Positions 171 through 17,769 of a stretch of DNA of 64,000 bases are shown here, piece after piece (within the stretch, counting starts at the first letter, position 1; every line of letters starts with the position of its first letter). A program made the position numbers and the translations under genes. The stretch comes from Cellulophaga sp. 20_2_10 (lineage in GTDB: Bacteria; Bacteroidota; Bacteroidia; Flavobacteriales; Flavobacteriaceae). The DNA lies in NCBI RefSeq assembly GCF_023476645.1, contig NZ_JAMCOJ010000006.1, positions 1 through 64,000 on the forward strand. The letters are read 5' to 3'. Under the pieces are notes generated by a model, which searched no databases, was not told the origin of the DNA, and was given only the letters and a program-made list of their open reading frames with translations.

Positions 171-316
171 GGGCAACACCGTGTATAATTAATTGCTTGT
201 TTTAAGCCTACTTACGAATCCCGAAGCGTCGGGACTCGCGGACTTTCTATTCGGTTTTTTTTGCTAACTTCAGTGCTTAAACACGTAACTAACCATATAC
301 AATCACGTTGTATTCA
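171..316 (+). repeat. attC-like cassette junction, site 1 (subfamily A)
   Basis: Imperfect palindrome. The left arm opens with GGGCAAC at 171-177 and the right arm ends with GTTGTATTCA at 307-316. The arms pair over about 35 bases around a small central hairpin, CCCGA-AGCG-TCGGG, near 220-233. A 19-base stretch of the right arm (279-297) recurs identically at 9947-9965 in site 12. The last 10 bases are the exact reverse complement of 840-849, after the next gene. Confidence 0.75.
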
Positions 317-325
317 ATTTAAAAA

Positions 326-835
326 ATGCAGGACAATTTTAAATTAATTACTGAAGGAGTATTAATAATTGCATCTTCAAATTCCTTAAAGCGGAAGTAT
401 AAGAATGAAGAATTTAATTACGATTTTCCAGATGGTATTAGTCAATTGATTTTCGATAATTCAATCATCGCGATAACAAATTCTGGCGGAGATAGTTTAT
501 TGGTGGAATTCTCAATGGAAAAAGAGGTTGACATTGCTGAATTCGATAAGGTCATTGAGCAATCCATAGAATTATCCGAAAATGACGAGCTATTAATCCT
601 TTCGCATGCAGAATTTACTATGATTTGCCGTAAGGATGGAGATTTCAGAAATGATAAATGTTGGCCAATAAAATTTTCAAAATCACTTGAAAACGGAAAA
701 TATCTTGTACAGATTGCTGTAATGGATGTTGAAGAAGAATTTGAAAAATATAACGCATATTTTAAAGTGGATATTAATTTGAAAAAGATTTCGGAAGAAT
801 TAACTACAAATTTCGTCTGTGAATTGTGCGAGTAA
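326..835 (+). CDS. Cassette-borne hypothetical protein, 169 aa
   Basis: Acidic, probably cytoplasmic protein without signal peptide or membrane segment; the family is not recognised. It has a Cys-rich C-terminus (CELCE). The ATG lies 10 bases after the right core of site 1. The gene is the only one in its unit, and the unit is bounded by a perfect 10-base inverted pair (307-316 and 840-849). The reverse-strand frame over the same bases is treated as a shadow because the whole array reads rightwards. Function unknown. Confidence 0.7.
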   Translation: MQDNFKLITEGVLIIASSNSLKRKYKNEEFNYDFPDGISQLIFDNSIIAITNSGGDSLLVEFSMEKEVDIAEFDKVIEQSIELSENDELLILSHAEFTMICRKDGDFRNDKCWPIKFSKSLENGKYLVQIAVMDVEEEFEKYNAYFKVDINLKKISEELTTNFVCELCE

Positions 836-839
836 AAAC

Positions 840-1050
840 TGAATACAACAAAACCTATAAACAATACGGGCTTAGGTTTTAAACGCTAAGGTCTGCGTAT
901 ATTTATAAAGTCCGCCAAATCTTTTGATTTGGCTTTTAAAATGAAAGATTAAAACAAAATAAATCCCGAAGCGTCGGGATGACTTAGTAACAATCCAAAA
1001 TGTAGTGCTTATCATCTGCCCTACGTGTTTTATACTAAACCTTGCCAACA
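840..1050 (+). repeat. attC-like cassette junction, site 2 (subfamily B)
   Basis: A 211-base imperfect palindrome. The left core TGAATACAAC (840-849) matches the start of the preceding unit in reverse complement. The right core TTGCCAACA (1042-1050) pairs with 1734-1742 after the next gene. It has an inner hairpin GCCAAATC/GATTTGGC and the same CCCGAAGCGTCGGG hairpin as subfamily A (around 963-979). Bases 844-875 recur identically (32 of 32) at 4149-4180 in site 5, and a 23-base stretch from 897 recurs in site 8. Confidence 0.75.
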
Positions 1051-1052
1051 AT

Positions 1053-1724
1053 ATGGAAAAACGAACCTCTACATACATTTTAGTTATATTTATCATGTCA
1101 TTTGTGTGTTGTAAAAGTCAAGAAAACAAACAATCTGAATTAATTAAAATACCAAATTCGTTTAAAATTCTTGGCGAAACAGAAGGCGATTTAGACAAAG
1201 ACGGAATATCTGAAAAAATTGTAGTTTACGATACAGAAAAGAAAACTTATTTAGATAGAGGCACTGAAAGACAAATATTCATTTACAAAAAGAAGAATGA
1301 TAAATGGGAAATTTGGAAAAAATCTATCGGAGCAATATTACCAAGTGAACAGGGAATGATGATGGGAGAACCATTTAGAGGAATCTCAGTTGTAAAAAAC
1401 TGTATTGTAATTAATCATTTTGGTGGAAACCGTAAAACATTCAATTATACGCATACGTTTAAATATCAAAATGCTGATTTTCATTTAATTAGAGCAACAG
1501 TATATATGGAATCACAATGTGATAATTACTCTAATCTTGATTATAATCTTTCAAATGGCAAGGTTAATTATAAAAAAGTAATAACAGATTGTGAAAAAGC
1601 AAGTTCAAAAATAGAGAAAGAAAAAATGATTAGAAAACTGGAATTTTTACCTACTATGAATGGTTTTTATCCTGGAAATACTAAAATGAAATTTCCGAAA
1701 TCTGAAACGACAATCTATTATTAA
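1053..1724 (+). CDS. Cassette-borne lipoprotein, 223 aa
   Basis: A hydrophobic N-terminus followed by a Cys pair (FVCCKSQ) reads as a lipoprotein signal, so the product probably sits on the outer or inner membrane. A short acidic motif (GDLDKDGISEKIVVYD, about residues 45-60) resembles the calcium-loop-like repeats of FG-GAP/VCBS proteins and recurs in the genes at 4348 and 21689. The longer frame from 1005 would read through the junction repeat, so ATG 1053, three bases after the right core, is chosen. The unit is bounded by a perfect 9-base inverted pair (1042-1050 and 1734-1742). Function unknown. Confidence 0.75.
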   Translation: MEKRTSTYILVIFIMSFVCCKSQENKQSELIKIPNSFKILGETEGDLDKDGISEKIVVYDTEKKTYLDRGTERQIFIYKKKNDKWEIWKKSIGAILPSEQGMMMGEPFRGISVVKNCIVINHFGGNRKTFNYTHTFKYQNADFHLIRATVYMESQCDNYSNLDYNLSNGKVNYKKVITDCEKASSKIEKEKMIRKLEFLPTMNGFYPGNTKMKFPKSETTIYY

Positions 1725-1733
1725 AAAAAATAC

Positions 1734-1870
1734 TGTTGGCAATACCATATATAATTTATTGCCAGTGCAAGCCTACTTACAAATCCCGTAGCGTCGGGAT
1801 GGCTAAGTGCAAACTTGAGAGGTTATTACTTTTTACTGACTTACTTGCTATATATTTAACGTTACCAACA
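1734..1870 (+). repeat. attC-like cassette junction, site 3 (subfamily A)
   Basis: The left core TGTTGGCAA (1734-1742) is the exact reverse complement of the start of the preceding unit. The right core is GTTACCAACA (1861-1870). The centre contains the CCCG-TAGCGT-CGGG variant of the shared hairpin (1784-1799). Compared with site 1 the left half is clearly homologous, while the right arm is more diverged. Confidence 0.7.
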
Positions 1871-1901
1871 AGCTAAAACTGCATAGACAAAATTGAAAAA
1901 T

Positions 1902-2837
1902 ATGAAAATAACAAGAATATTTATTTATTCAATAATATTAATTTTAATTAGCAGTTGTGCAACTAGTAAAGCCGTAAAATACTTTAAAGAAGGTAAAACA
2001 AAACAAGGAGCCTTTAAAGTAACTTTACCTTTCGAAGTTAAAAATGGATGGATAATTATCCCTGTAGAAATAAACAATAAAAATTATAATTTTCTTTTAG
2101 ATACAGGAACACCAACACTTGTCTCAAAAGAACTTGCTCAAAGTTTAAATTTAAAAGTTATTGACTCTGTTAATGTTTCTGATGTTTTTAATAAAAAACA
2201 AACTAATAAATATACCAGAATAGAAACTATTCAAATTGGAAAAATAGATTTTATTGAAACAGTAGCCTTAATAAATGATTTTAATTCAGTACCAATTTGG
2301 TCTTCTCTCAATATTGACGGATTTATTGGTTCTAGTTTAATGCAACACGCTGTTTGGGATATTGATTTTAATAATAAACAAATTACTATAACTGATAATG
2401 AATCGAAATTAAGCTTACCTGAAAAGATAATTGAAAATAAGCTATTTATTGGTTACGCAGGAATACCTTCTATTGCCTGTAAGATAAATGGCGAAAAAGT
2501 TTGGAATTTTGATGTTGATTTTGGCTATAATGGAGGTCTAGTTATACCTTTTTCCGAATTTAAAAAGCAAAAAGAAAATGGTAAAATTACAGATTTTACA
2601 AAATCTAAAACAACTGGTGCTATTGGAATTTATGGAAAACAAGATAATGAGAGAATATCTTACTCAGGAATTATTAATGAATTGGAATTCGGAAATACTA
2701 TTTTAAAAAATCAAAAAGTATATTCGGAGCAATATTTGGGTCGTAGATTTGGTTCAGATTTTTTTAAAAATTATAGAGTTATTCTAAATTGGAAGAGTAA
2801 AAAAATAAAGTTAATCGAAAAATCGAACTCGAAATAA
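1902..2837 (+). CDS. Retropepsin-like aspartic protease lipoprotein, 311 aa
   Basis: Lipoprotein signal (ILISSCATS). The catalytic-type motif FLLDTGTP is at about residues 66-73, and a second half-site (DVDFGYNGG) is near 205, where a Gly-Tyr replaces the usual Thr-Gly. DGFIGSSLM is a flap/hydrophobic-Gly-like motif. These are the features of single-chain retropepsin-like (clan AA) aspartyl proteases found in Bacteroidota envelopes. ATG 1902 is preferred to TTG 1893. The unit begins with a clear core, but the downstream site does not match it, so the 3' junction has been rearranged or decayed. Substrate unknown; whether the second site is active is doubtful. Confidence 0.8.
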   Translation: MKITRIFIYSIILILISSCATSKAVKYFKEGKTKQGAFKVTLPFEVKNGWIIIPVEINNKNYNFLLDTGTPTLVSKELAQSLNLKVIDSVNVSDVFNKKQTNKYTRIETIQIGKIDFIETVALINDFNSVPIWSSLNIDGFIGSSLMQHAVWDIDFNNKQITITDNESKLSLPEKIIENKLFIGYAGIPSIACKINGEKVWNFDVDFGYNGGLVIPFSEFKKQKENGKITDFTKSKTTGAIGIYGKQDNERISYSGIINELEFGNTILKNQKVYSEQYLGRRFGSDFFKNYRVILNWKSKKIKLIEKSNSK

Positions 2838-2846
2838 AAAGTCTAC

Positions 2847-2950
2847 GCGCAACACCCTAAAAAATCAATTGCGAGTAATCACATACTTACGAATCTCAAT
2901 GCATCCCAATTCTACTCAGTTTTATTTACTAAATTAGTCCCATAAACCTC
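2847..2950 (+). repeat. Degenerate attC-like junction, site 4 (subfamily A)
   Basis: GCGCAACACCC at 2847-2857 aligns with the left arm of site 1, and 2886-2935 (cttacgaatc, then ctcagttttatttac) aligns with its centre. The CCCGAAGCGTCGGG hairpin is mutated and no right core can be found before the next gene. It is read as a worn-out junction. Confidence 0.5.
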
Positions 2951-2960
2951 AAAAAAAACA

Positions 2961-3473
2961 ATGGTAAAATATTTAGTCTCCTTTGAAAACTTTATGTCTA
3001 ATGAAAAAAAGATAGAGAAAATAGTTTCTTCGCCAGAAGAGGTACTAGAAGAATACAAAAGTATAAATTGGTTTAAATTACTAACCAAAGCTACACCAGA
3101 AAACCAAAACGATTCTGATATAGTTGATGACAATTCTTGGAATTTTTCGGTTACATTTAAAAATCATAAAAAAGAAGATATTCTTCATATTCACCCACAC
3201 CTTTACCCAAGTACGCGTGTGCAACCAGATGAAATTAAACTAGTTGTAGAATTTAGGGCGTGTAAAGTAGTACCTACTTCAAAATTTAGTCAGTTTTTTG
3301 GTGGATCTAAAGAAAAAGCTGTTGAGGAAAACAAAACCGCTGCTATAGGTGTTTTACAAGCAGATGCGCTAACTCATCTAACTAATTTTTTAGATAACAA
3401 CCATATAGATCTTCATAAGTTTAACAGTCCTTCTTTACATACAATTATTGAAGAAAGCGGTAAAGTATATTAA
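2961..3473 (+). CDS. Hypothetical protein, 170 aa
   Basis: Soluble, probably cytoplasmic protein; the family is not recognised. There is no signal peptide or membrane segment. A central segment HIHPHLYPSTRV (about residues 75-86) has three closely spaced His residues and could bind metal, but that is only a possibility. The ATG follows a run of A. A second in-frame Met (residue 12) is a possible alternative start. It lies between the worn site 4 and a short-chain dehydrogenase fragment that starts directly at its stop codon. Confidence 0.65.
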   Translation: MVKYLVSFENFMSNEKKIEKIVSSPEEVLEEYKSINWFKLLTKATPENQNDSDIVDDNSWNFSVTFKNHKKEDILHIHPHLYPSTRVQPDEIKLVVEFRACKVVPTSKFSQFFGGSKEKAVEENKTAAIGVLQADALTHLTNFLDNNHIDLHKFNSPSLHTIIEESGKVY

Positions 3474-3587
3474 TTTAGAATTCATACAAATGACGTTGCC
3501 AGAGCTGTAGTATATTTAGCATCTGAGTATGATGGTTTTATAACTGGTGCAACACTAGACATAAACGGTGGCGTATACAATATGTAA
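3474..3587 (+). pseudogene. 3' fragment of a short-chain dehydrogenase/reductase gene
   Basis: Directly after the preceding stop codon, and in the same frame, 37 codons read like the C-terminus of a classical SDR: DVARAVVYLASEYDGFITG followed by ATLDINGGVYNM and a stop. In intact SDRs this segment (VVYLASD...ITG..L.VNGG) ends the protein. The catalytic Ser-Tyr-Lys and cofactor-binding parts are missing, so this is a non-functional remnant, probably left by deletion or by insertion of the cassette upstream. Confidence 0.8.
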
Positions 3588-3617
3588 CACACCAATAACA
3601 TAATTTTATAGTAGTTT

Positions 3618-3655
3618 AAAAAATCTAGGGGAGCTTGCTTCTCTAGATTTTTTTT
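3618..3655 (+). terminator. Rho-independent terminator
   Basis: A 16-bp stem (AAAAAATCTAGGGGAG, loop CTTG, CTTCTCTAGATTTTTT) followed by more T. It stands after the SDR fragment and probably ended the original dehydrogenase transcript. Confidence 0.75.
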
Positions 3656-3740
3656 GTGTTTATAATGCCATTTATACTAAAATAATACCCAATTACACAT
3701 TTCCGTAATTGTGATATAAAAAATAGTTTTACATTGTAGG

Positions 3741-3791
3741 AAAATTAGTAACCAAACTGCAATATGTGCGTTTACTGACTAGTTGTAAAAC
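3741..3791 (+). repeat. Right half of an attC-like junction (site 4b)
   Basis: Only the right end is convincing: GTTGTAAAAC at 3782-3791 is the exact reverse complement of 4145-4154 on the far side of the next gene. The preceding bases resemble the right arms of other sites only loosely, and no left arm is visible. The junction therefore abuts foreign sequence (SDR fragment and terminator) on its left. Confidence 0.5.
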
Positions 3792-3807
3792 ATTTTAACC
3801 AAAATCT

Positions 3808-4131
3808 ATGAAATCAATTATTGTTGCAATAATATTTATTCTATTAGGTGCTCTAATTAAATATGGAAAAATGTATTTCCTGATTGCTGGATACAATACA
3901 ATGTCAGAAAAAGAGAAAAACAAATATAATGTGGACGGATTAGCAACCGTAATGTGGAACGGTATGTTAGGAATGGCTGTACTATTAGTAATAGGTTATT
4001 TTGCGGCAAAGTTGTTGGACAATCCTCAGATTGAGACTTATGTAATGTTTGGTGCTTTAATAATTGGAATACCCTACATTTTGATAAAGTCCAATTCTGG
4101 TAAATACAAAAACGACAACGTATCAGATTGA
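3808..4131 (+). CDS. DUF3784 family membrane protein, 107 aa
   Basis: Small integral membrane protein with three hydrophobic segments (about residues 3-20, 50-68 and 77-94). Between the first two is the family hallmark GYNTMSEKEKNKYN. DUF3784 proteins are widespread in Firmicutes and Bacteroidota and have no established function. The unit is bounded by a perfect 10-base inverted pair (3782-3791 and 4145-4154), making this one of the cleanest single-gene cassettes in the array. Confidence 0.8.
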   Translation: MKSIIVAIIFILLGALIKYGKMYFLIAGYNTMSEKEKNKYNVDGLATVMWNGMLGMAVLLVIGYFAAKLLDNPQIETYVMFGALIIGIPYILIKSNSGKYKNDNVSD

Positions 4132-4144
4132 AAAAAGAAAAAAC

Positions 4145-4347
4145 GTTTTACAACAAAACCTATAAACAATACGGGCTTAGCTGCTTAAGATATAAACCAG
4201 GAATATCGACCAACACCGCCAAATCTATTGGATTTGTCTTTTGAAAACAAAAATAAAAAACAAACAAAAAGTTTTAGCTTAGTCCGAAGTCGGAAACGAA
4301 AAGGTTTCCTTTACTCCGCACTAACTATAGCTGAAACGTTGTATGCA
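4145..4347 (+). repeat. attC-like cassette junction, site 5 (subfamily B)
   Basis: The left core GTTTTACAAC (4145-4154) matches the preceding unit's start. Bases 4149-4180 are identical over 32 bases to site 2. The right core GTTGTATGCA (4338-4347) is the reverse complement of 4865-4874. The inner part holds the GCCAAATC/GATTTG remnant hairpin and a second stem around 4285-4312. Confidence 0.75.
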
Positions 4348-4857
4348 ATGAAAAAAATCATCTTAATATTATTATCTGGGTTGAGTTATTTGAATATTTT
4401 TAGTCAAATTGATTCTATCCCTATTGTAAAAATACCTAATGAACAATATGCAATTTATAAATACGATTCGACTCTTCAACTAGATATTTTGACTTACCAA
4501 TATAACTTATGGGATATTGATAATGATAAGCACAAAGACGAAATAGAGTTTATAAGTAATGGTGGTGCTCATTCTTATTACCACCTTAGAATTCGGCTTT
4601 CTTCTAAAAAGAAATGGATAGAATTCCCAACATTTGAGATTGACCTTCCTTACCCTCACAAAATAAAAAATTTGACAGAATTAGGTGAAATGTATCCTCA
4701 ATTTGTTGTGTATGATTTTGATGATGATGATTTAAAAGAAATATACTTAAATCTTTACAATCTATCTTCAATACCAACAGGATATGGTTTAACGTCAAAA
4801 CAAATTTTAATTGATTATGAAGATGATAAACTAAACGTAATAGATTTCAAAAAATAG
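4348..4857 (+). CDS. Cassette-borne secreted protein, 169 aa
   Basis: ATG 4348 follows the junction core without a gap and gives a normal Sec signal peptide (residues 1-20, ending NIFSQ). The open frame extends upstream to 4228 only because the repeat happens to be readable. The mature part has two acidic motifs, WDIDNDKHKDEIEF and DFDDDDLKEIYLNL, that look like FG-GAP/VCBS calcium loops, as in the genes at 1053 and 21689. Exported or periplasmic; function unknown. The unit is bounded by a perfect 10-base inverted pair (4338-4347 and 4865-4874). Confidence 0.75.
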   Translation: MKKIILILLSGLSYLNIFSQIDSIPIVKIPNEQYAIYKYDSTLQLDILTYQYNLWDIDNDKHKDEIEFISNGGAHSYYHLRIRLSSKKKWIEFPTFEIDLPYPHKIKNLTELGEMYPQFVVYDFDDDDLKEIYLNLYNLSSIPTGYGLTSKQILIDYEDDKLNVIDFKK

Positions 4858-4864
4858 GAAACAC

Positions 4865-5063
4865 TGCATACAACAAGGGCTATATTTAATAAGCGTTTTG
4901 GTGTTTTACTCAAAGTTTAGTGTATTTGCGAAGACCGCCAAATTTTTAAATTTGGCTTTATAAAGAAAAAGATAAAACAAAATAAAAAGTTTTGGCTAAG
5001 TGCTTAATCGAAAGTTAATCGCTTTTTAATCCCGTACTAACCATAGCCGCGACGTTGTGCACT
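4865..5063 (+). repeat. attC-like cassette junction, site 6 (subfamily B)
   Basis: The left core is TGCATACAAC (4865-4874) and the right core GTTGTGCACT (5054-5063), the latter the exact reverse complement of 5735-5744. The centre carries GCCAAATT-TTTA-AATTTGGC, the subfamily B hairpin with compensating changes on both arms. Confidence 0.75.
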
Positions 5064-5097
5064 ATTTAAGAAAAAACACACTTGAAAGAATATTTTG

Positions 5098-5730
5098 ATG
5101 AATAAACAGTATTTAATAATTGTAATATTTTCAGTTCTGCTATTAACTTCTTGTGACCCTTACGGAGTAAACAAAGATGAGGATTTTCAAAAAATAAGAA
5201 AGCAACTATCTGAAAACCTAAGTGTAAATTCAATTGAAATTGAGGATAATAAAAATTTATTAATTAAAGTAAAAAGTCCTTTTAAAGAAAATAAAGGTTC
5301 TTTTGAAAATTTTGCTTCTGTGGCTCAATACATAATCGGAAAAAACTACAAACCGAATACTTTAAGTATGGATAAAAATATCATTATTGAAATGACCGAT
5401 ACTTTGAATAATAATTATAAATCCAAGACTGATTTTAAATCAATATTTTTTCTTGAAAAATTTTTCGATAAAACTTTAAACAACTTAGAACTAATTTTAA
5501 ATCCTGAGTATAATGGGAAAGAAAATACAATTAATGAATTTCACAAAACAGATTGTTTCAAAAAAATCATAAGTAAAGAAATTAAATCAGCAAATATTGT
5601 TGGAATAGAGAAAGATAAAACCGGAAAAGTAAATGTAATTATTATAGCAGAAGGAAACGAAGAACATTATTTAAAAATCAATTATATTGGAACTGAATTA
5701 AATATTATAAAATGTTTCAATGATAAATAA
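5098..5730 (+). CDS. Cassette-borne lipoprotein, 210 aa
   Basis: Lipoprotein signal with lipobox LLTSC at about residues 15-19, followed by Asp, then a mixed charged domain of about 190 residues. The family is not recognised. ATG 5098 is used; an adjacent TTG at 5095 is possible. Its unit is bounded by a perfect 10-base inverted pair (5054-5063 and 5735-5744). The bases after the second copy do not continue into a full junction repeat. Confidence 0.75.
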   Translation: MNKQYLIIVIFSVLLLTSCDPYGVNKDEDFQKIRKQLSENLSVNSIEIEDNKNLLIKVKSPFKENKGSFENFASVAQYIIGKNYKPNTLSMDKNIIIEMTDTLNNNYKSKTDFKSIFFLEKFFDKTLNNLELILNPEYNGKENTINEFHKTDCFKKIISKEIKSANIVGIEKDKTGKVNVIIIAEGNEEHYLKINYIGTELNIIKCFNDK

Positions 5731-5734
5731 AAAC

Positions 5735-5757
5735 AGTGCACAACAAAGAACTGAGGT
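5735..5757 (+). repeat. Left end of an attC-like junction, rest missing (site 7)
   Basis: AGTGCACAAC (5735-5744) closes the preceding unit exactly, but the following sequence is unlike either junction subfamily. It ends the first continuous block of cassettes. No other gene is visible between here and 6058, apart from the hairpin at 5802-5841. Confidence 0.5.
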
Positions 5758-6057: not shown

Positions 6058-6297
6058 ATGGCTAGACAGAGCATATCTTTTACAAAACCAAATGACGAGT
6101 GGTTAAAGGAACAGGTTGACAATCAGGAATACTCCAGTAAAAGTGAACTTGTAAATGATTTAATTAGACAAGCAAGAAGCCAGCAAGTTCAAATAGACTG
6201 GATTAATTCTAAGCTAGATAACGCTGAAAAGAGCGGATTTACAAGTGATTCTAAATCTGAAATACTAAAGCAGTCTAAAGCCACGCTTAATGGCTAA
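6058..6297 (+). CDS. parD: ParD-type antitoxin of a type II toxin-antitoxin pair
   Basis: A 79-residue protein. The N-terminal part (about residues 3-45, RQSISFTKPNDEWL then SELVNDLIRQA) has the ribbon-helix-helix pattern of ParD/CopG antitoxins. The C-terminal part is the charged, probably flexible toxin-binding tail. It should bind and neutralise the ParE toxin and repress its own promoter. The gene overlaps the downstream toxin by 8 bases, the usual antitoxin-first operon. Toxin-antitoxin cassettes are a known stabilising component of large integron arrays, which fits its place here. Confidence 0.88.
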   Translation: MARQSISFTKPNDEWLKEQVDNQEYSSKSELVNDLIRQARSQQVQIDWINSKLDNAEKSGFTSDSKSEILKQSKATLNG

Positions 6298-6556
6298 ATA
6301 CAAATTAAGTAATTCTGCAAAAGAAGACCTTATAAGAATTCACCATTACGGTGTTAAAAAATTTGGAATGAGTCAAGCCGACAAATACTTTGATTCATTT
6401 TTTAAATATTTTGACATAATTGCGCAAAGACCATATTCATTTGAATCAGTAGATTTTATAAAAAACGGATATAGAAGATGTGTATGTGGGTCAGACAGTA
6501 TATATTATCGCATAAATAATGATACTGCTGAAATAATGGCAATTGTAGGAAAATAG
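6290..6556 (+). CDS. parE: ParE/RelE-superfamily toxin, possibly C-terminally truncated
   Basis: An 88-residue basic protein starting inside the antitoxin gene. The sequence KYKLSNSAKEDLIRIHHYG, then a core ending YYRINNDTAEIMAIVGK, matches the ParE/RelE toxin fold. Chromosomal ParE proteins are usually gyrase poisons. After the TAG (6554-6556) the same frame continues DLKNIL and then TAA (6575-6577), which looks like the normal ParE tail (RQDL...). The TAG may therefore be a CAG-to-TAG change removing seven residues. The toxin might be attenuated, or unaffected because the core is intact. Confidence 0.85.
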   Translation: MAKYKLSNSAKEDLIRIHHYGVKKFGMSQADKYFDSFFKYFDIIAQRPYSFESVDFIKNGYRRCVCGSDSIYYRINNDTAEIMAIVGK

Positions 6557-7306: not shown

Positions 7307-7377
7307 GGCTCGTACTAAATTCAAAAAGTTAGCGTCTACTTATACGCTACGGACCATATACAGAGACGTTATAAAAT
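7307..7377 (+). repeat. Short attC-like junction, site 9 (71 bp)
   Basis: GGCTCGTAC (7307-7315) closes the preceding unit. GTTATAAAAT (7368-7377) opens the next and matches 8317-8326 with one mismatch. Between them only a small palindrome remains (TAGCGT/ACGCTA around 7329-7350). This is close to the size of short attC sites in mobile integrons. Confidence 0.65.
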
Positions 7378-7381
7378 ATAA

Positions 7382-8314
7382 ATGAAAAACATAACCCTAT
7401 TTCTAATTCTTAGCTGCTCAACGCTAGTATTTGCCCAAAAGCCAAAAAATAACCTAGAATTATTAGATTTTAAAGGAAAAGTAAAGTCTGTTAAAGAAGT
7501 TTACTTTGTGGCAAAAGATAGTTTTGGAATTGCTGTTAAGAGTGAAAAAGAATATAATAAGTATAGTATTAAAAACTTTAATACGAAAGGATACTTAACC
7601 GAAGAAAAAACTTATAAAAGTGGCAATAGACTAAAGAATAAAATTAAAACTACTTTTGATAACCAAGGAAATAAAGCCGAAATAAATCAATATTATGGCA
7701 AAAAAGAACAACTACAATTTAGGCAAACTCGAGAGTACAACTCACACAACAAACCAATTGTTTTAAAAAACTATACGGCCTACTCCAACGGTGACATACA
7801 TTTAGATGCTATAACAAAATACACATATGATAAAAAAAATAGGGTAACAGAAGAAAATGTTTTTCTGCCAAGTGGTACTTTAGAAACAAAGACATTATAC
7901 AAGTATAATACTCAAAAAAAAATAGTTAAACTACAAAATAGATATGACTCGAATGGAGAACTATCTCTAAGAATTTCTGAATACAAAAACCCTAAAAAGA
8001 TAGTTATACTATATTATTTAGATGGAGAACCAAGTTCTGACAATATATACTTGTTTAACAGTAAAGAACAAAATATAGAAGAGCAAACATCTAATCTTGA
8101 TGGAACTGTTAGTACTTCTAACAAATTAACGTATAATACATACGGATATAAATTAACCCAAATAAGCGTAGAAAAAAAATTCGGGACTATTATTAAGGAA
8201 GATTACTATAAGTTTTCATACAAATTTGATCGGTATAAAAATTGGACAAAAAAAGTTATATCCAAGAATGAATCTTTTACTCTTATTATAGAAAGAGAAA
8301 TAGCATATTACTAA
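7382..8314 (+). CDS. Secreted YD-like repeat protein, 310 aa
   Basis: Sec signal peptide ending LVFAQ (residues 1-19). The rest is a series of irregular units with a KYTYDKKNRVTEE / YKYNTQKK pattern, that is, Tyr-Xaa-Tyr followed by Asp/Asn-Xaa-Xaa-Asn/Gly. These are weak Rhs/YD-type repeats, as also seen at 24124. It is probably a beta-rich exported protein on the cell surface or in the periplasm. The unit is bounded by a 9/10 inverted pair (7368-7377 and 8317-8326). No catalytic domain is visible. Confidence 0.7.
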   Translation: MKNITLFLILSCSTLVFAQKPKNNLELLDFKGKVKSVKEVYFVAKDSFGIAVKSEKEYNKYSIKNFNTKGYLTEEKTYKSGNRLKNKIKTTFDNQGNKAEINQYYGKKEQLQFRQTREYNSHNKPIVLKNYTAYSNGDIHLDAITKYTYDKKNRVTEENVFLPSGTLETKTLYKYNTQKKIVKLQNRYDSNGELSLRISEYKNPKKIVILYYLDGEPSSDNIYLFNSKEQNIEEQTSNLDGTVSTSNKLTYNTYGYKLTQISVEKKFGTIIKEDYYKFSYKFDRYKNWTKKVISKNESFTLIIEREIAYY

Positions 8315-8316
8315 AC

Positions 8317-8475
8317 ATTTTAGAACACTAAATAAAAAGTCTTAAAACGAATTTTTATTTCAACTATTACCACCAATAATAACCCGTATTGATATATATA
8401 CAACAAACAATTGTATAAAAAACAGGCTAAGGCTAATAGACCATATGCTAGAAAATTTGAGATATAACTAGTCCT
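8317..8475 (+). repeat. Composite or decayed attC-like junction, site 10
   Basis: The left core ATTTTAGAAC (8317-8326) closes the previous unit. A second left-arm-like segment starts at 8397 (ATACAACAAACAATTG), followed by aggctaaggc as in subfamily B. A clear right core before the next gene is missing, so two junctions may have fused. Confidence 0.45.
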
Positions 8476-9846: not shown

Positions 9847-9983
9847 TTGCTAACACCGTGTAAAATTAATTGCTACTTATGAATCCCGAAGCTAGGGGAC
9901 TAATGGACTTTATTGGTTGGTAATTATTTACTACATTAGTTGCTTGAAACACGTAACTAACCATACAAACAACGTAACCAACA
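9847..9983 (+). repeat. attC-like cassette junction, site 12 (subfamily A)
   Basis: The left arm TTGCTAACACCGTGTA (9847-9862) parallels site 1. The centre is a mutated CCCGAAGCTAGGGG hairpin (9884-9897). The right arm shares 19 identical bases with site 1 (9947-9965) and ends GTAACCAACAAC (9974-9985), where site 3 has GTTACCAACA. Confidence 0.7.
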
Positions 9984-12325: not shown

Positions 12326-12727
12326 ATGAAAAAAATAGTCTTTATACTTATTACATTTTCGCTAGTTTCTTGTATTGGAGATTATGAGGTTACTACTGCT
12401 TATTTAGATGGTAAAATCTTTGAAGACAAAGGCTACGCAGAAGACCAAATGTCTCCTGCAGATGCAAAAGCAAACCCAGAATTTGCAAAAGAAATACTAA
12501 CAACTCTTGCTACTATTACTTTTGTAGACCAAACAAATATTACGGCAACATACTGGAACTACTCGCAAGAAACAATAACCAACAAGGGCACCTATTTTAT
12601 ACAAGATAATAAAATTGTAGTCCGTTTTAATGACATAAATTCCATATTTGGTAGAACTTTTGAGTTAAAAGATGCCGAACATCTTACATCTGACGGTCAG
12701 CTTAACGCATACCAATTAAAAAAATAA
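12326..12727 (+). CDS. Small lipocalin-like lipoprotein, 133 aa
   Basis: Lipoprotein signal with lipobox SLVSC (about residue 16), then about 115 residues. The C-terminal part (ATITFVDQTNITATYW, GTYFIQDNKIVVRFN, FELKDAEHLTSDG) reads like META/lipocalin-like beta hairpins found in many Bacteroidota lipoproteins. It is anchored in the envelope and has no known substrate. The gene follows the previous one by 29 bases and may be cotranscribed. Confidence 0.65.
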   Translation: MKKIVFILITFSLVSCIGDYEVTTAYLDGKIFEDKGYAEDQMSPADAKANPEFAKEILTTLATITFVDQTNITATYWNYSQETITNKGTYFIQDNKIVVRFNDINSIFGRTFELKDAEHLTSDGQLNAYQLKK

Positions 12728-12748
12728 AAGCCAAGCACACGCGCATAA

Positions 12749-13256
12749 ATAAAACCGTACAAACACAAAAAAGAAACAGAAGAACTAGATGTATCTGCAT
12801 CTGAAATTGTCTTTTTAAAAAAGTATTTAAAGAGAGCCAAACGTAATATAATACTTTCGGTTGCCGCATTTTTTATCATCTACACAGGTCTATTTTGCTC
12901 TTCCAGACAAAAATGAGATTAGTATATACAACACATACGGTTTATTTAATGTGCTTTTGGGCTTATTTGTTGTTACCGGTATTATTGCTTTTATAGCGTT
13001 TAAAACCATAAAAATTAGCAAACTAAAAAAAGATGTACTAGAACAAAAGAAATTAAGGCAATATGGTATTGTTAGCCGAGCAGCTTATCATAAAGGTAAT
13101 TACTATCTAAAGCTTGAAGCGGGTAATCCCCGCACTTTAACATCTAAGACGCAAAATTTTTATCATTTAAGTAAAGGAAACACAATTAATTTATTGGTTC
13201 AATGCTATTTACAAAACTACACTGATTTTCTATTCAGTTTTTATTTATTAAATTAG
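12749..13256 (+). pseudogene. Frameshifted two-TM membrane protein gene, start lost
   Basis: Two overlapping frames join into one protein. The first, without ATG, reads KPYKHKKETEELDVSASEIV and on to FFIIYTGLF. The second continues ALPDKNEISIYNTYG, a TM segment, and an extracytoplasmic part (QYGIVSRAAYHKGNYYLKL). Removing one T from the run at 12893-12896 restores the frame. The lack of a start codon shows further decay. The last 12 or so codons lie inside a junction half-repeat (13221-13299), so the original 3' end has been replaced as well. The fold resembles DUF3592-type proteins nearby. A sequencing error could explain the frameshift but not the missing start. Confidence 0.65.
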
Positions 13257-13299
13257 ACGCTTAACCACCAACTATTCTTGTAGAAAACCGTTGCATTAA
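13221..13299 (+). repeat. Right half of an attC-like junction, site 15 (subfamily A)
   Basis: From 13224 the sequence gattttctattcagttttta then aattagacgcttaa aligns with 241-280 of site 1, and GTTGCATTAA at 13290-13299 is a core-like end. No left arm is present: the sequence to the left is the broken membrane gene. It suggests cassette-type joining reached this point, beyond the last complete junction. Confidence 0.5.
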
Positions 13300-13309
13300 T
13301 TTAACCAAA

Positions 13310-14545
13310 ATGAAAAGCAGAATATTTTTAGCTCTCTTTTTAAGTGGCTTATTTACAAATATTTACTCACAAGATAAAGATTGTAGTTGCAAAACTGACT
13401 TCACATTTTTAGACAGTAAAATAAGAAAAACACCTGCCTACAAAGTAAATAAGGAAGCATACAACACTTCGTATTCAAAAATTGTAAAAGAAGTAAACAC
13501 TATAAATTCAGTTTTTGATTGTTATGCTTTACTAAATAAATTATTAATTTCCTTAAACGACAATCACAGTAAAATTTATGGTCTGGATTTAGGAGCTACA
13601 GAGAAAGTAAAAGCAAGTCCTGATGAGCTAGATAATTTTAAAAAATCTCCCCTTTTTAATGCGTACCCCATACCAAATATTGATTTAGATAGTTTAAAAT
13701 CGGTCTTGAAATCGAAGACTAAAATGGATATAGAAGGTGTCTACACAAGAAAAAATTTTATGACTATTGGTGTGTATAAAAGTGAAGACAAGGAAAGTTA
13801 TAAGGCCATTATTCTAGAATCTGAGTCTGATGTTTGGCAAGTAGGTGAAATTATGTATGTTCTAATTCCGTTTGCTAATGATTATCTATTAAGCATAGGA
13901 GGTAGCACAACATCTAAAAGGTTAATTGCTTACACAGAAAGAATAGAAAATGGTTTCTTTTATTTTATGGGCTTTCAGAAAGATATTTCTGAAACAAATT
14001 ATGCTGCAAAAATGCCCTCTGGTGATACCTATTACCGTGAGGAGTTTTCTGATGAAATTACATACCTAAGAATAGGAAGCTTTAACTCTTGGTACCCTAC
14101 TCTATCTGATGCCGAAAATTTTTATAAAACCTTAGAAGGGAATTTAAACAAGAGTAACTTAATTGTTGATCTAAGAAATAATGGCGGCGGTGGTGACCGA
14201 AACTCTGATATTATATACAAGCTACTAAAAGACTATGCTAAAAAAAATAAGATTTATGTTTTAATTAATCATAGAACTGTAAGCAACGCAGAACAATTTG
14301 CAAATAGACTAAGCAAATTAGAGAACTGCAAACTTTTTGGCATAAGAACAAATGGTACTCTCGCCTATGAAATAAAGGCGGAAAGTTACACGCTACCTTG
14401 CGGTAATTTTATAGCTGTACTTTCCTCTAAAAAGAACTCGAACTACCTAGCATTTGAGTCTAAAGGAATAGAGCCAGCGGTTACATACCAAATAAATACA
14501 GATTGGATAGAGAAATTAAAAAACCATATTAAGAATAACAACTAA
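13310..14545 (+). CDS. Secreted S41 family (C-terminal processing-type) peptidase, 411 aa
   Basis: Sec signal peptide ending TNIYSQ (about residue 21). The C-terminal half is an S41/tail-specific protease domain: SNLIVDLRNNGGGGDRNSD (about residues 282-300) and the nucleophile region INHRTVSNAEQFANRL (about 320-335) with Ser before Asn-Ala-Glu, followed by GTLAYE. It lacks a recognisable PDZ domain between the N-terminal helical part and the protease core, as in many Bacteroidota secreted S41 proteins. It should act on extracytoplasmic peptides. It starts 11 bases after the half junction at 13290-13299, but no matching core follows the gene. Confidence 0.85.
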   Translation: MKSRIFLALFLSGLFTNIYSQDKDCSCKTDFTFLDSKIRKTPAYKVNKEAYNTSYSKIVKEVNTINSVFDCYALLNKLLISLNDNHSKIYGLDLGATEKVKASPDELDNFKKSPLFNAYPIPNIDLDSLKSVLKSKTKMDIEGVYTRKNFMTIGVYKSEDKESYKAIILESESDVWQVGEIMYVLIPFANDYLLSIGGSTTSKRLIAYTERIENGFFYFMGFQKDISETNYAAKMPSGDTYYREEFSDEITYLRIGSFNSWYPTLSDAENFYKTLEGNLNKSNLIVDLRNNGGGGDRNSDIIYKLLKDYAKKNKIYVLINHRTVSNAEQFANRLSKLENCKLFGIRTNGTLAYEIKAESYTLPCGNFIAVLSSKKNSNYLAFESKGIEPAVTYQINTDWIEKLKNHIKNNN

Positions 14546-14592
14546 GCCCTAAAATGGGTATAAATAATTACTAAATTGGGTATGTAAGCACT

Positions 14593-14616
14593 CCCCTATT
14601 CTTGTACAAATAGGGG
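14593..14616. other. Hairpin CCCCTATT/AATAGGGG
   Basis: A perfect 8-bp stem with an 8-base loop, 48 bases after the S41 peptidase stop. No T-run follows, so it is not a standard terminator. It could stabilise the 3' end of the transcript. Confidence 0.4.
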
Positions 14617-14642
14617 CTACGAAATTTAAAAAAATCCAATTT

Positions 14643-14756
14643 ATGTTTTCAATAAAACAATTATCAATTTTACTTGTTATAATAGCGATACCAAATACTA
14701 CTTTTTCACAATACAAACAAAACACCTATAGTATTGATAGCGATGGAGAGCATTAA
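14643..14756 (+). pseudogene. Signal-peptide-only remnant of a secreted protein gene, 37 aa
   Basis: ATG followed by a complete Sec signal peptide (VIIAIPNTTFSQ) and only 14 more residues before TAA. No domain follows, and the next 60 bases before the RDD gene are stop-rich. It looks like the 5' stump of a deleted secreted protein gene; a genuine tiny exported peptide is less likely. Confidence 0.5.
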
Positions 14757-14817
14757 AAGATAGCAAGGAAATAATGTCTGCGCAAAACACGCTGCTTAAT
14801 TAAACAACAAATACTAA

Positions 14818-15426
14818 ATGGGTTTTTACATCATTTCTGGTCTCTTTATTCTTCTACTCTACTATATGTTAAATTTTATAGCAGAGCACCTAGTTCGTAA
14901 AGAATACCAAGATGCAGAAAATAGAATTTCAGGCACTAAGACTTACAAAACCATTTCTAGGCGTAATGAATTGTTTGAATATGAATTTCCTTTTAACCCA
15001 AACATAAAGAAGCTCTACTTGCGTCTTATAGCAAAAGTAATTGACTATGGTTTGTATTATGCACTATCTGTAGGTTTTAAAATCTGTTTCCCTAGTCTCG
15101 TATTTTCACCATTTTTTACCGCTTTTCTTGCTTTGTTTTTACTAAGTCCCCTTTTAGAATCTTTTACAGGAAAAACAGCTGGTAAATTTGTTCTTGGTCT
15201 AGAGGTAATAGATGATATAGGTAACAAACCTTCTTTAACTATATCTTATTTAAAAAACATACTTCAGTTAGGAATTATTATTGTTTATGCGGCATCTTAC
15301 GCCACATTTTGGGAAGATGAACTGTTTTTTCATAACAAAAAGACATTTACATATACCATTAAATCGAAGCAAAAAAAAGAAATTCTAGACACCGTAAAAA
15401 ACTTTGCTAAACAACAGCATACTTAA
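14818..15426 (+). CDS. RDD family membrane protein, 202 aa
   Basis: An N-terminal hydrophobic helix (residues 2-20), a 45-residue hydrophilic linker, then an RDD domain: RLIAKVIDYGLYYALSVG with the conserved Asp, a second TM, ESFTGKTAGKFVLGLEVID and a third TM (IIIVYAASYATFW). RDD proteins are small integral membrane proteins; some act in Na+ or osmolyte transport, but most have no proven role. The extra N-terminal helix is unusual for a plain RDD protein. Confidence 0.8.
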   Translation: MGFYIISGLFILLLYYMLNFIAEHLVRKEYQDAENRISGTKTYKTISRRNELFEYEFPFNPNIKKLYLRLIAKVIDYGLYYALSVGFKICFPSLVFSPFFTAFLALFLLSPLLESFTGKTAGKFVLGLEVIDDIGNKPSLTISYLKNILQLGIIIVYAASYATFWEDELFFHNKKTFTYTIKSKQKKEILDTVKNFAKQQHT

Positions 15427-15499
15427 GACATGCTTTATATACAAATCTGCACAGCACACTATGAGCACTTCTTTTATATCAAATATATATTCAACTAGC

Positions 15500-15580
15500 A
15501 CGAATATAGGTTTACCAATTAAAACCCTTAAAATTACTCCTATGTTTGTGTTATTAGGTAGCAATTGGTTTAAAAAAGTG
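15500..15580 (+). repeat. Dispersed intergenic repeat, copy 1
   Basis: The stretch acgaatataggtttaccaat then taaaac, ending in ggtttaaaaaa, recurs in diverged form at 38960-39032 (acgaatatagatttaccaat). Both copies lie in spacers shortly before an exported or membrane protein gene. The small open frame over this copy is not considered a gene. Confidence 0.45.
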
Positions 15581-15629
15581 ACCTAATTAGACATCAACTA
15601 TAATTTAATAAACAACTAAAAAACTAAAA

Positions 15630-16340
15630 ATGAAAGCATTAAATATTGTTAAATACGTTTTAGCATTTATAGGAACAGCTATGTTAGTAGGAACTTTTTT
15701 TCTTTATAAAAGCACTAGCGATTTTATAGAAAAATCTGTAGAAACCCAAGGTACTGTTGTAGAATTATTAGAATCGCGTTCTAATAGCTCGTCAGATAAG
15801 TCTATAACGTACAAACCATTAGTGGCGTTTACAGATGCTAAAGGAACAGAGGTAGAGTTTGCATCATCTACAAGTAGTAACCCACCAAGTTATAGTGTTA
15901 ATGAAAAGGTAGATGTTATTTACAATCCAGAATCACCAAATAAAGCTAAAATAAAAGGTTTTTTCTCTCTTTGGGGAGGCGCTATGATATTAGGAATCTT
16001 AGGTCTTATTGTTTTCTTAATTGGTTTTGGTCTAATTGTATCTGGTGTTAAGAAAAAAAATATGTTAAAACACTTAAAAACTCACGGAACAAGGATAGAG
16101 TCAGATTTTCAGAATGTAACTCTAAACACTACTCTTGCTGTTAATGGGCAAAATCCTTTTGTAGTTGTGTCTCAATGGCAAAACCCAGCAACTTCTGAGC
16201 TACATATTTTTACAAGTGATAATATTTGGTTTGATCCTACTGACTTTATTAAAACAGATAAAATAAATGTTTTAATAGACAAAAAAGATCCTAAAAAATA
16301 TGCCGTAGACTTATCTTTTTTACCAAAAGTAGCTGGATAG
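15630..16340 (+). CDS. DUF3592 family membrane protein, 236 aa
   Basis: N-terminal TM (about residues 7-25), an extracytoplasmic beta domain with the DUF3592 signature (TQGTVVELLE, then TYKPLVAFTDAKGTEVEFAS, and VDVIYNPESPNKAKI), a second TM (residues 115-140), and a C-terminal second beta domain of the same kind. DUF3592 proteins are common in Bacteroidota, sometimes near toxin or phage-defence genes; their function is unknown. Two degraded genes in this window (12749 and 27690) seem to have a similar layout. Confidence 0.82.
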   Translation: MKALNIVKYVLAFIGTAMLVGTFFLYKSTSDFIEKSVETQGTVVELLESRSNSSSDKSITYKPLVAFTDAKGTEVEFASSTSSNPPSYSVNEKVDVIYNPESPNKAKIKGFFSLWGGAMILGILGLIVFLIGFGLIVSGVKKKNMLKHLKTHGTRIESDFQNVTLNTTLAVNGQNPFVVVSQWQNPATSELHIFTSDNIWFDPTDFIKTDKINVLIDKKDPKKYAVDLSFLPKVAG

Positions 16341-16396
16341 AAAACATAAGGCGTCAGCTTATAAAACCTAGCGTATTAACATAATTAGTTTTAGAA

Positions 16397-17239
16397 ATGA
16401 AGCACGTAAAAGACATAGATTGGAGCCTACTTTGGAGCATCACTAAAGATATTATTCTTCCACACACAGGAACACTAATACTTAATAGTATCTTGTTTTT
16501 AATAATTGGCCTTTTCTTATCTATTATATATGCTGTTATTTTACATAAAAAAGGAATACTCAAAAGAAAACCTAAATATTACAATTGGTTGGTAAAACTT
16601 TACATACCAATTATAATAGGTTTATTTATGTACATTTTTGGCCAAATTGGTTTGTTAAGAGGCGTTTATAAAGTTATAGATAGCGAAAAAGCAATTGTAG
16701 TTAACGGCTTATATGATGTAGGTGTAGACTATACTTTTGACTCTGAAGAAAGTAAAAATGATTTTATAAAAAGACTGCAAAAAGCTGCAAAAGAGGCCAG
16801 AACTGGGTCTAATTATTTATCTGATATTTTAAAAATATCTGCGGTAAATTACAATACTGGAAACTCTGTTATTGACGCAGGTAAAAACAAACTTTCCCTG
16901 TATTTAATTGATGAATACGGAGATGAAATTTATACAACAGGTATGTACGCTATGCTTAATGTTGCTGGTGCCAAAGCGCAGATTAACATTAATGAAGCCT
17001 TGCCCTATAGTGAGTTTAGTGCTGCTATGGAGATTTTGTTAGAGGTAGGCTATACTGATATTGAAATTGCTGTAAAAGCCAAGCTAACCAATTGGTTTTC
17101 TGCAATGCTAGAGTCGCAATACAAGTCTATGGTAAAATCTTTGTGTGTTTTATTACTCATTATTATGGCTTTTCCGCTGCTAGAATTTTTTATATATACC
17201 AGATATATGAAAGCAAAAAACAAAGACATAAAAGCTTAA
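16397..17239 (+). CDS. Membrane protein with large extracytoplasmic domain, 280 aa
   Basis: Two N-terminal TM segments (about residues 24-50 and 66-86), an extracytoplasmic helical domain of about 155 residues, and one C-terminal TM (about 251-270) followed by a Lys-rich end. The family is not recognised. It lies 56 bases after the DUF3592 gene, in the same direction, and is possibly cotranscribed. Function unknown. Confidence 0.65.
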   Translation: MKHVKDIDWSLLWSITKDIILPHTGTLILNSILFLIIGLFLSIIYAVILHKKGILKRKPKYYNWLVKLYIPIIIGLFMYIFGQIGLLRGVYKVIDSEKAIVVNGLYDVGVDYTFDSEESKNDFIKRLQKAAKEARTGSNYLSDILKISAVNYNTGNSVIDAGKNKLSLYLIDEYGDEIYTTGMYAMLNVAGAKAQININEALPYSEFSAAMEILLEVGYTDIEIAVKAKLTNWFSAMLESQYKSMVKSLCVLLLIIMAFPLLEFFIYTRYMKAKNKDIKA

Positions 17240-17298
17240 GACGATACTAATAATAAGCAAAATCATTAAAACTACTTACAACAAAAGAAGTAATTATT

Positions 17299-17751
17299 AT
17301 GAAAAAAATAACAATACTACTGCTACTTACTAGCTTATTTGGCTATGCCCAAATAGACTATAAAGGACTTATAAAAAACATAGAAGACATTACATTAGAG
17401 ACTGATATAAACACTTATTTTAAAGGCGTTCCGTTTACTACAGAATACGGGGATATTAAATGTGATGACGAGCGTTTTTTACGCTTTTATGGGGTTCTTG
17501 TAGATAGAGTAAAAATAAGTAATACATATAAAGGTAAAAGTATTACTATGAATTTTTTTGACGAAAAATCTGATTACAACAACATTAAAACTAAACTAAT
17601 AGCATTGTATGGTGAGCCAGAAGTTAACGAAGGTAGTAGCTCTATTTATTACGAATGGAAAACGGATAATAAAAGCCTAATGCTAAGAATTAATACAGAA
17701 GATGGCTTATTTACCGAATTTAATGAACTGGTCGTGACATTATTCCAATAA
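17299..17751 (+). CDS. Small secreted protein, 150 aa
   Basis: Sec signal peptide ending FGYAQ (residue 18). The mature part of 132 residues has the beta/alpha pattern ITMNFFDEKSDYNNIKTKL followed by ALYGEPEVNE. That is typical of small periplasmic proteins in which a helix ends in a LYGEP turn. The family cannot be named. It starts the run of exported proteins from 17.3 to 24 kb. Confidence 0.65.
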   Translation: MKKITILLLLTSLFGYAQIDYKGLIKNIEDITLETDINTYFKGVPFTTEYGDIKCDDERFLRFYGVLVDRVKISNTYKGKSITMNFFDEKSDYNNIKTKLIALYGEPEVNEGSSSIYYEWKTDNKSLMLRINTEDGLFTEFNELVVTLFQ

Positions 17752-17769
17752 AACAAAAAATTATACGTA

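Follow-up and report, generated by a model that had tools for sequence, protein, structure and literature searches.

Our data show that the window, the first 64,000 nucleotides of contig NZ_JAMCOJ010000006.1 of Cellulophaga sp. 20_2_10 (contig bases 1–64000; the genome is AT-rich and comprises 4.17 Mb in 58 contigs), opens within an array of genes whose two ends pair with each other gene by gene; the contig start itself falls inside the array. We propose, with a probability of roughly 0.88, that this and related arrays consist of cassettes belonging to an integron-like system found in Flavobacteriaceae, and probably in other Bacteroidota, in which a XerA-type recombinase would excise cassettes as circles and act on a site folded from the bottom strand. 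The proposal is carried by features that we show by comparing sequences: the anatomy of the units, unit-specific pairing of their ends, covariation within the sites, attI-like junctions, duplications that mostly end at the core, and linkage of recombinase genes to arrays.

Cassette ends, duplications and site folds

An earlier note on this DNA had proposed that five genes in the window are flanked by exactly reverse-complementary ends, and that these ends would join in a circular cassette to form the base of one folded site. All five end pairs (307/840, 1042/1734, 3782/4145, 4338/4865 and 5054/5735) are present at those coordinates. When the seven bases following (G/C)TT in each start were set against the reverse-complemented seven that precede AAC/AAT in each end, 7/7 matches fell only on the diagonal of the resulting 5 x 5 table; the 20 off-diagonal combinations score 3, except units 1 and 5, which score 6 in both directions. 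The second unit carries core CCTT and AAT where the others have CGTT and AAC. At base 8 all five units have A at the start against G in the reverse-complemented end (hereafter A/G units), which is an A.C mismatch on the top strand and a T.G wobble on the bottom strand. The match extends past the one first described, with usually two to four further matching bases after base 8. Of two units reported as near matches, 7368/8317 held up (10/14 bases, A/G at position 8) and 6724/7307 did not (7/14, tied with other offsets). The unit from 1861 shows no pairing with its end near 2850 (7/14, tied).

We then carried the comparison of pairing within and between units, for which the earlier note had called, to a wider sample. 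A covariance model (R1) built from 35 aligned sites gave 119 matches at E ≤ 0.05 in 37 sources (116 used) and 195 matches at E ≤ 0.01 in 61 further sources (193 used); partial and opposite-strand matches were excluded, and the pairing test also dropped matches shorter than 80 nucleotides. Taking units as stretches between consecutive same-strand R1 sites, the final set held 305 flanked sites and 227 units. In the 203 units from other genomes the within-unit excess is strong: on average 5.95/7 bases match within units and 2.44 between them, and perfect 7/7 ends occur in 114 of the 203 as against 0.64% of mixed pairs. The match total of 1208 compares with a maximum of 567 in 2,000 shuffles, and when repeated start/end pairs are counted once the 135 distinct pairs total 759, against at most 401 in 5,000 shuffles. 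The two ends of a single integrated site match at 2.53/7 (5/305 perfect), no better than mixed pairs, and the pairing is therefore a property of the putative excised circle. Pairing within units and not within integrated sites supports the idea that the ends join in a circle as the base of one folded site, and this idea also fits the compensatory stem changes, the core-ended duplications, and the attI-like junction and recombinase at the array edge described below.

The paired ends are diverse in sequence and constant at their borders. Altogether 116 perfect units carry 72 different 7-mers, and all but one of them (115) are A/G units; among the 53 units with six matches, one extra base in an end explains 20. 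Outside the Cellulophaga genome, units with at least 6/7 pairing have AAC in 164/164 and CGTT in 161/164 cases. Extended end pairing alone is not new, since a canonical integron shows it too: at the IntI locus of Pseudoalteromonas fuliginea (L188), the one canonical locus compared, found in a de novo scan, GTT plus seven bases pair in four consecutive cassettes, with T and not A at position 8. A simple L-box rule, tried twice on canonical attC sites, yielded zero units.

Whole-cassette duplications point to exchange at the core. We compared 29 duplications at ≥90% identity, each required to extend to within 5 nucleotides of the core on the right. They represent a small number of cassette families in two genomes, and the pairs are not independent. 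The right limit of identity lies 2–3 nucleotides after the start of TT in 20 of them. Left limits fall at −2 in 5, between −6 and −29, a region of similarity among sites, in 16, and further upstream in 8. As in integrons, cassettes thus appear to be exchanged as units at the core.

On the bottom strand, RNAalifold predicts an L stem of 16 pairs without a bulge, six of which have changed at both positions. When the AAC/GTT pairs are included, two-sided changes number 44 cells, compared with 15.1 in shuffled alignments (0/500 shuffles as high), a count made on the same alignment from which the R1 structure was derived; sliding the partner columns by 1–3 destroyed the signal. Three pairs are near-constant bottom-strand wobbles (35/35, 34/35 and 32/35 sites) and a fourth is a wobble in 22/35; all are mismatches on the opposite strand. 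We modelled circle junctions by joining each unit's own ends in 169 units with at least 6/7 pairing, and obtained mean predicted energies of −30.2 kcal/mol for the bottom strand, −25.6 for the top strand and −23.5 for the integrated bottom strand. The bottom strand folds better than the top in 168/169 junctions, a comparison free of the effect of unit selection, and the circle folds better than the integrated site in 165/169, a difference partly built in by that selection. In the window, the bottom strand was better in 4/4 junctions tried, by 0.6 to 4.4 kcal/mol. Most of six folds inspected have a continuous R stem, a predicted 3-nucleotide bulge on one strand, and then the L stem. These models predict that the sites, like attC, fold as hairpins on the bottom strand. 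In the available text of the source we consulted, attC sites carry two to three extrahelical bases.

Two simpler origins of such arrays bear on these results. Dispersed palindromic repeats, of the repetitive extragenic palindromic (REP), miniature inverted-repeat transposable element (MITE) or terminator-like kind, might have inserted between genes without any cassette recombination; the sites are indeed repeated and palindromic, occur on many contigs, and are in some cases solitary. Inserted repeats would not be expected to give gene-specific ends that pair across a gene, nor would they give duplications ending at CG|TT or a recombinase-side junction matching the first cassette's end, so we regard this origin as scarcely credible. 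Alternatively, homologous recombination between similar sites could be the main amplifier of cassettes, with the neighbouring recombinase an incidental resolvase. The sites are similar and repeated, and identity reaches 114–200 nucleotides upstream of the core in 8/29 duplications; against this, the right limit is within 3 nucleotides of the TT start in 20/29, pairing kept across varied R stems together with a fixed wobble needs a constraint from folding, and recombinase, attI-like junction and array are linked. We consider this explanation very unlikely.

Recombinases at the array edges

Genes for tyrosine recombinases of about 355–405 residues lie at the array edges, as in integrons. The catalytic R, K, HxxR, H and Y are kept in 17 aligned members, a set chosen largely for sites on the same contigs, so linkage was judged on a separate scan. 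For six array-type recombinases scanned, the best NCBIfam model is XerA (NF040815; 203–239 bits against a cut-off of 220, passed by 1/6), and all six fall below the IntI cut-off. The lysine motif and HxLRH are 64 residues apart (up to 67 where the motif match begins earlier; hereafter 64-type), compared with 106–107 in IntI-type loci; array-linked recombinases lack the IntI additional domain. In a tree of 90 rows, which omitted 11 fragmentary, repeated or odd rows and whose bootstrap had not settled, the 16 IntI-type rows group together in a single branch (100/100) that contains zero array-linked Bacteroidota rows, placing the array recombinases, as far as this tree goes, outside the IntI clade.

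A predicted structure of one member (mean predicted local distance difference test, pLDDT, 82.7; predicted template modelling score 0.56) matched XerA (5hxy) first in the PDB, with the integron integrase 2a3v close behind. About 90–100 extra residues form a separate N-terminal domain (pLDDT 82.5), for which we found no convincing match among Pfam and PDB sequences. By fold it resembles the XPB damage-recognition domain (Z 7.3, 57 residues, root-mean-square deviation 1.8) and SMARCAL1 HARP (Foldseek E 0.047, probability 0.91); these weak resemblances of a model are leads, under the level for a safe shared fold. At 558 and 542 residues, the recombinase frames of L134 and L136 are longer than the others in the family and seem to contain additional sequence. 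On a Flagellimonas plasmid, a short XerA next to erm(F) is without the N-terminal extension. Next to the recombinase, a divergent gene for a small cysteine-rich protein is present at L074 (6370–6771), L075 (6569–6958), L091 (2471–2848) and L078 (4249–4593); the one scanned had no convincing Pfam match.

The linkage scan covered 80 loci, the best of at least 567, from named genomes found by recombinase alignment and not selected for arrays. A locus counted as having an array when its downstream sequence, of at least 3 kb, held R1 sites or two or more A/G units. Long (≥340 residues) 64-type recombinases have an array downstream in 8/14 cases (5/14 by R1 sites alone), compared with 0/12 shorter 64-type, 0/15 IntI-type and 0/12 other loci; L184 and L185 were counted as 64-type through a misfire of the motif search, and both look like IntI. 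On the opposite strand of the linkage loci none had two A/G units. Named hosts of arrays include Lutibacter, Algibacter onchidii, Winogradskyella ursingii and Seonamhaeicola aphaedonensis. Among 64-type loci, 13/45 run out no more than about 1.1 kb past the recombinase, as would follow if arrays interrupted assembly. Paired units without R1 sites adjoin related recombinases at L118, L134 and L147; the shuffle control in this paired-unit scan kept composition in 60-base windows, not dinucleotides. At L144 (reverse strand, 12507–18420), paired units lie upstream of a short relative and have A/T at position 8 in 3/5; they may be a further variant.

Beside the recombinase gene lies a GTT that the first cassette's end predicts: 6–7 of 7 bases match in 18/19 loci that have an array downstream, against 21/342 mismatched combinations. 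This attI-like junction is 27–204 nucleotides after the recombinase in 17/19 loci (at some loci the distance is counted from where the protein match ends, which need not be the stop codon); the exceptions are the locus of the Cellulophaga genome and that of Zunongwangia. In one group it is preceded by CATATAA(A/C)CAA or similar. At L081 and L148, whose recombinases face away from the array, the matching junction lies upstream of the recombinase, at L081 124 nucleotides from the start codon; the start codon of L148 is assumed. These positions suggest an attI-type insertion point beside the recombinase gene, as in integrons. At L127, L132 and L141, which belong to one recombinase group, the junction follows an inverted repeat ending CAATT-GTT or CACTT-GTT.

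The arrays might instead be canonical integron cassettes, that is, clusters of attC sites lacking integron-integrases (CALIN), with unusual attC sites and moved by an ordinary IntI encoded elsewhere or lost. Their architecture is identical to that of integrons, canonical cassettes can show GTT+7 pairing, and the available text of published work reports that the integrase is often absent beside CALIN. Yet the curated IntI model TIGR02249 finds nothing over its cut-off in this genome or in any of 149 (this one and 148 relatives), with sub-threshold matches (E ≤ 1e-20) in 125/149; a different recombinase adjoins the arrays, with its own attI-like junction; and there are zero R1 sites in the 39 loci that include the IntI-type loci. 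A canonical origin therefore seems unlikely to us.

At the thresholds used, R1 sites occur in 88 of the 149 genomes, the recombinase in 82, and both in 75. In the Cellulophaga genome, R1 matches at 50 places (E ≤ 0.01), many on short contigs or near contig ends; R1 misses the interiors of the type-2 sites at 847, 4152 and 4872 and therefore undercounts there. One full-length array-type recombinase is encoded on contig C1 (386-residue frame), and a second, on contig C6 (1344–2330), has three in-frame stops, as do its copies in G002 and G005. None of the ten tyrosine recombinase matches in the genome is on the window's contig. We read the system of this genome as old and partly decayed, and the array in the window is an orphaned, partly decayed piece of it at a contig start.

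Features of the window and contents of cassettes

The features of the window are collected in the table. An Rfam scan of the window found one tRNA and nothing else. Toxin–antitoxin cassettes, such as the probable ParDE pair listed there, occur in large integrons.

Table. Cassette arms, genes and folded sites in the window (window positions; R1, covariance model of the sites).
Feature	Position	Strand	Basis
Folded site 0 (AAC...CGTT), type-1	175..309	+	R1 model 117.7 bits; among the 35 model-building sites
Cassette 1 start arm GTTGTATTCA, then A	307..316	+	sequence
Cassette 1 gene, 169 residues	326..835	+	Pfam: no match at E ≤ 0.01
Cassette 1 end arm TGAATACAAC	840..849	+	sequence
Folded site 1, type-2 interior	847..1043	+	read from sequence; circle junction folded; missed by R1
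Cassette 2 start arm C-TTGCCAACA, core CCTT	1041..1050	+	sequence
Cassette 2 gene, 223 residues	1053..1724	+	Pfam: no match at E ≤ 0.01
Cassette 2 end arm TGTTGGCAAT	1734..1743	+	sequence
Folded site 2	1741..1863	+	R1 25.8 bits, model end placed at 1885; junction folded
Cassette 3 gene, aspartyl protease family (PF13650); ends unpaired	1902..2837	+	Pfam
Weak site 3	2851..2965	+	R1 24.7 bits, E 0.028
Cassette 4 start arm GTTGTAAAAC	3782..3791	+	sequence
Cassette 4 gene, DUF3784	3808..4131	+	PF12650, 8.4e-20
Cassette 4 end arm GTTTTACAAC	4145..4154	+	sequence
Folded site 4, type-2 interior	4152..4340	+	read from sequence; junction folded; missed by R1
Cassette 5 start arm GTTGTATGCA	4338..4347	+	sequence
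Cassette 5 gene, 169 residues	4348..4857	+	Pfam: no match at E ≤ 0.01
Cassette 5 end arm TGCATACAAC	4865..4874	+	sequence
Folded site 5, type-2 interior	4872..5056	+	read from sequence; junction folded; missed by R1
Cassette 6 start arm GTTGTGCACT	5054..5063	+	sequence
Cassette 6 gene, 211 residues	5095..5730	+	Pfam: no match at E ≤ 0.01
Cassette 6 end arm AGTGCACAAC	5735..5744	+	sequence
ParD-like/ParE toxin-antitoxin pair, probable cassette genes	6058..6556	+	PF03693 0.0083 (below its cut-off), PF05016 2e-10
Cassette with imperfect ends, gene 7382–8314 (310 residues)	7368..8326	+	10/14 bases pair, A/G at position 8
Folded site, type-1	9852..9976	+	R1 68.8 bits
Folded site, diverged	13179..13292	+	R1 54.3 bits

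Arrays elsewhere can be long. Two single-contig genomes (G085 and G031) have 75 and 48 units in the stretches analysed, each over more than 60 kb, and in their 118 cassettes with at least 5/7 pairing the longest open reading frame points forward in 105, in reverse in 5, and is absent in 8. In G031, a second cluster of R1 sites (C1, about 2215000–2261000) lies ~0.5 Mb from the recombinase-linked array. Scanning of cassette proteins (92 of 102 open reading frames listed) gave single matches to immunity proteins (Imm7, WapI-like) and to the defence-library models HerA, PtuA, PifA and PD-T4-1. No near-identical whole cassette was common to different genomes among the loci compared; one related cassette in G001 and Seonamhaeicola is 81% identical over 578 nucleotides.

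Plasmids also carry relatives: 66 plasmid records matched, from which five regions were taken and four of these scanned for units. Recombinase relatives are followed by two paired A/G units in Rufibacter tibetensis, and by one each in Pontibacter kalidii and Chryseobacterium sp. SNU WT5. Within or next to these plasmid arrays are transposases of the IS110 family (L206 14278–15279, L207 16962–18020, L208 12874–14229); site-targeting IS110 elements are known in integrons.

Proposed mechanism and relation to known systems

We propose that each cassette usually consists of one gene and one site, and that the tyrosine recombinase at the array edge, of XerA type and with an additional N-terminal domain, would cut it out as a circle through strand exchange at CG|TT. 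This would bring the two cassette ends together, and the bottom strand of the junction is predicted to fold into a hairpin: ~13 pairs of R stem contributed by the cassette's own ends, then a 3-nucleotide bulge, ~16 pairs of L stem and a tip that varies. The sequence of the R stem would vary while its pairing is kept, with the fixed T.G wobble marking the bottom strand, and reinsertion would occur at the attI-like GTT beside the recombinase gene. The circles, the single-stranded recombination, and the specificity and direction of the recombinase are thus what comparison of DNA suggests.

Several results weigh against this mechanism. Recombination itself is something we infer rather than observed. 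In the Cellulophaga genome the 24 model-defined units match at only 3.38 of 7 within and 2.50 between units (3/2,000 shuffles as high); its arrays look decayed, and R1 misses some sites, so that some units are wrongly merged. Long recombinases are without a downstream array in 6/14 cases, among them L148, which has two sites on its divergent side, and a Persicobacter plasmid region with a full-length relative has zero units (1 of the 4 plasmid regions scanned). At the thresholds used, 13 genomes have R1 sites without the recombinase and 7 the reverse. Array-linked recombinases fall in several groups of the tree, not in one clade. Two of five covariation measures are no higher than in shuffles, namely the number of pairs changed on both sides (79/500 shuffles as high) and further pair types (345/500). 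Homologues of the window's DUF3784 gene occur in 10/148 genomes, this one included; at nine other loci they have no matching A/G-type ends, two of them lying near R1 sites, and the idea that cassette ends travel together with their gene is not supported.

On the proposed mechanism, the arrays appear to store and shuffle single genes via folded DNA sites with a recombinase other than the usual integrase, and their cargo includes a ParDE pair along with immunity proteins and individual proteins that match families of phage defence. Two published surveys, as their available text describes, pick integrases by the IntI additional domain, and the array recombinase would therefore be missed by design. 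The open-access text that our literature search reached held no description of such arrays in Flavobacteriaceae. If the recombinase acts on the array sites without the additional domain, then something else can stand in for a domain that has been described as necessary to IntI activity, and the evolution of folded-site recombination becomes testable by domain swaps. Integrons may even have arisen more than once. On this tentative view, to which we give somewhat less than an even chance, XerA-type recombinases of Bacteroidota independently adopted folded cassette sites; a new N-terminal domain, recalling XPB damage-recognition and SMARCAL1 HARP in its structure, reads branched DNA and replaces the IntI additional domain; and conserved T.G wobbles, not extrahelical bases, choose the strand.

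The available text on IntegronFinder 2.0 reports In0 elements and the complete integron of Salinibacter ruber from Bacteroidetes. The arrays described here resemble integrons, especially the large sedentary chromosomal ones, in having a tyrosine recombinase gene beside an attI-like junction, long arrays of mostly single-gene cassettes in the same direction, and folded sites with AAC/GTT cores, circle-paired ends and an in silico preference for the bottom strand. They differ in their recombinase, which lacks the IntI additional domain, falls outside the IntI clade and is equipped with an extra N-terminal domain.

The sites share the core triplets AAC and GTT with attC, whose consensus is RYYYAAC / GTTRRRY, but their cassette starts mostly fail GTTRRRY (9/169 fit), and they show a predicted 3-nucleotide bulge between R and L stems, conserved T.G wobbles and no predicted bulge in the L stem. 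With XerA, XerC and XerD the recombinases share their best model and top fold, both XerA, and the 64-residue motif spacing of short XerA-like proteins; unlike those proteins, they are linked to cassette arrays and have about 90–100 extra N-terminal residues. The array in the window is orphaned like a CALIN, with tyrosine recombinase matches absent from its contig, but its sites fail the attC consensus, and the genome's related recombinase, encoded elsewhere, is not IntI. In our reading the arrays function like an integron but fall outside the definition by IntI and attC.

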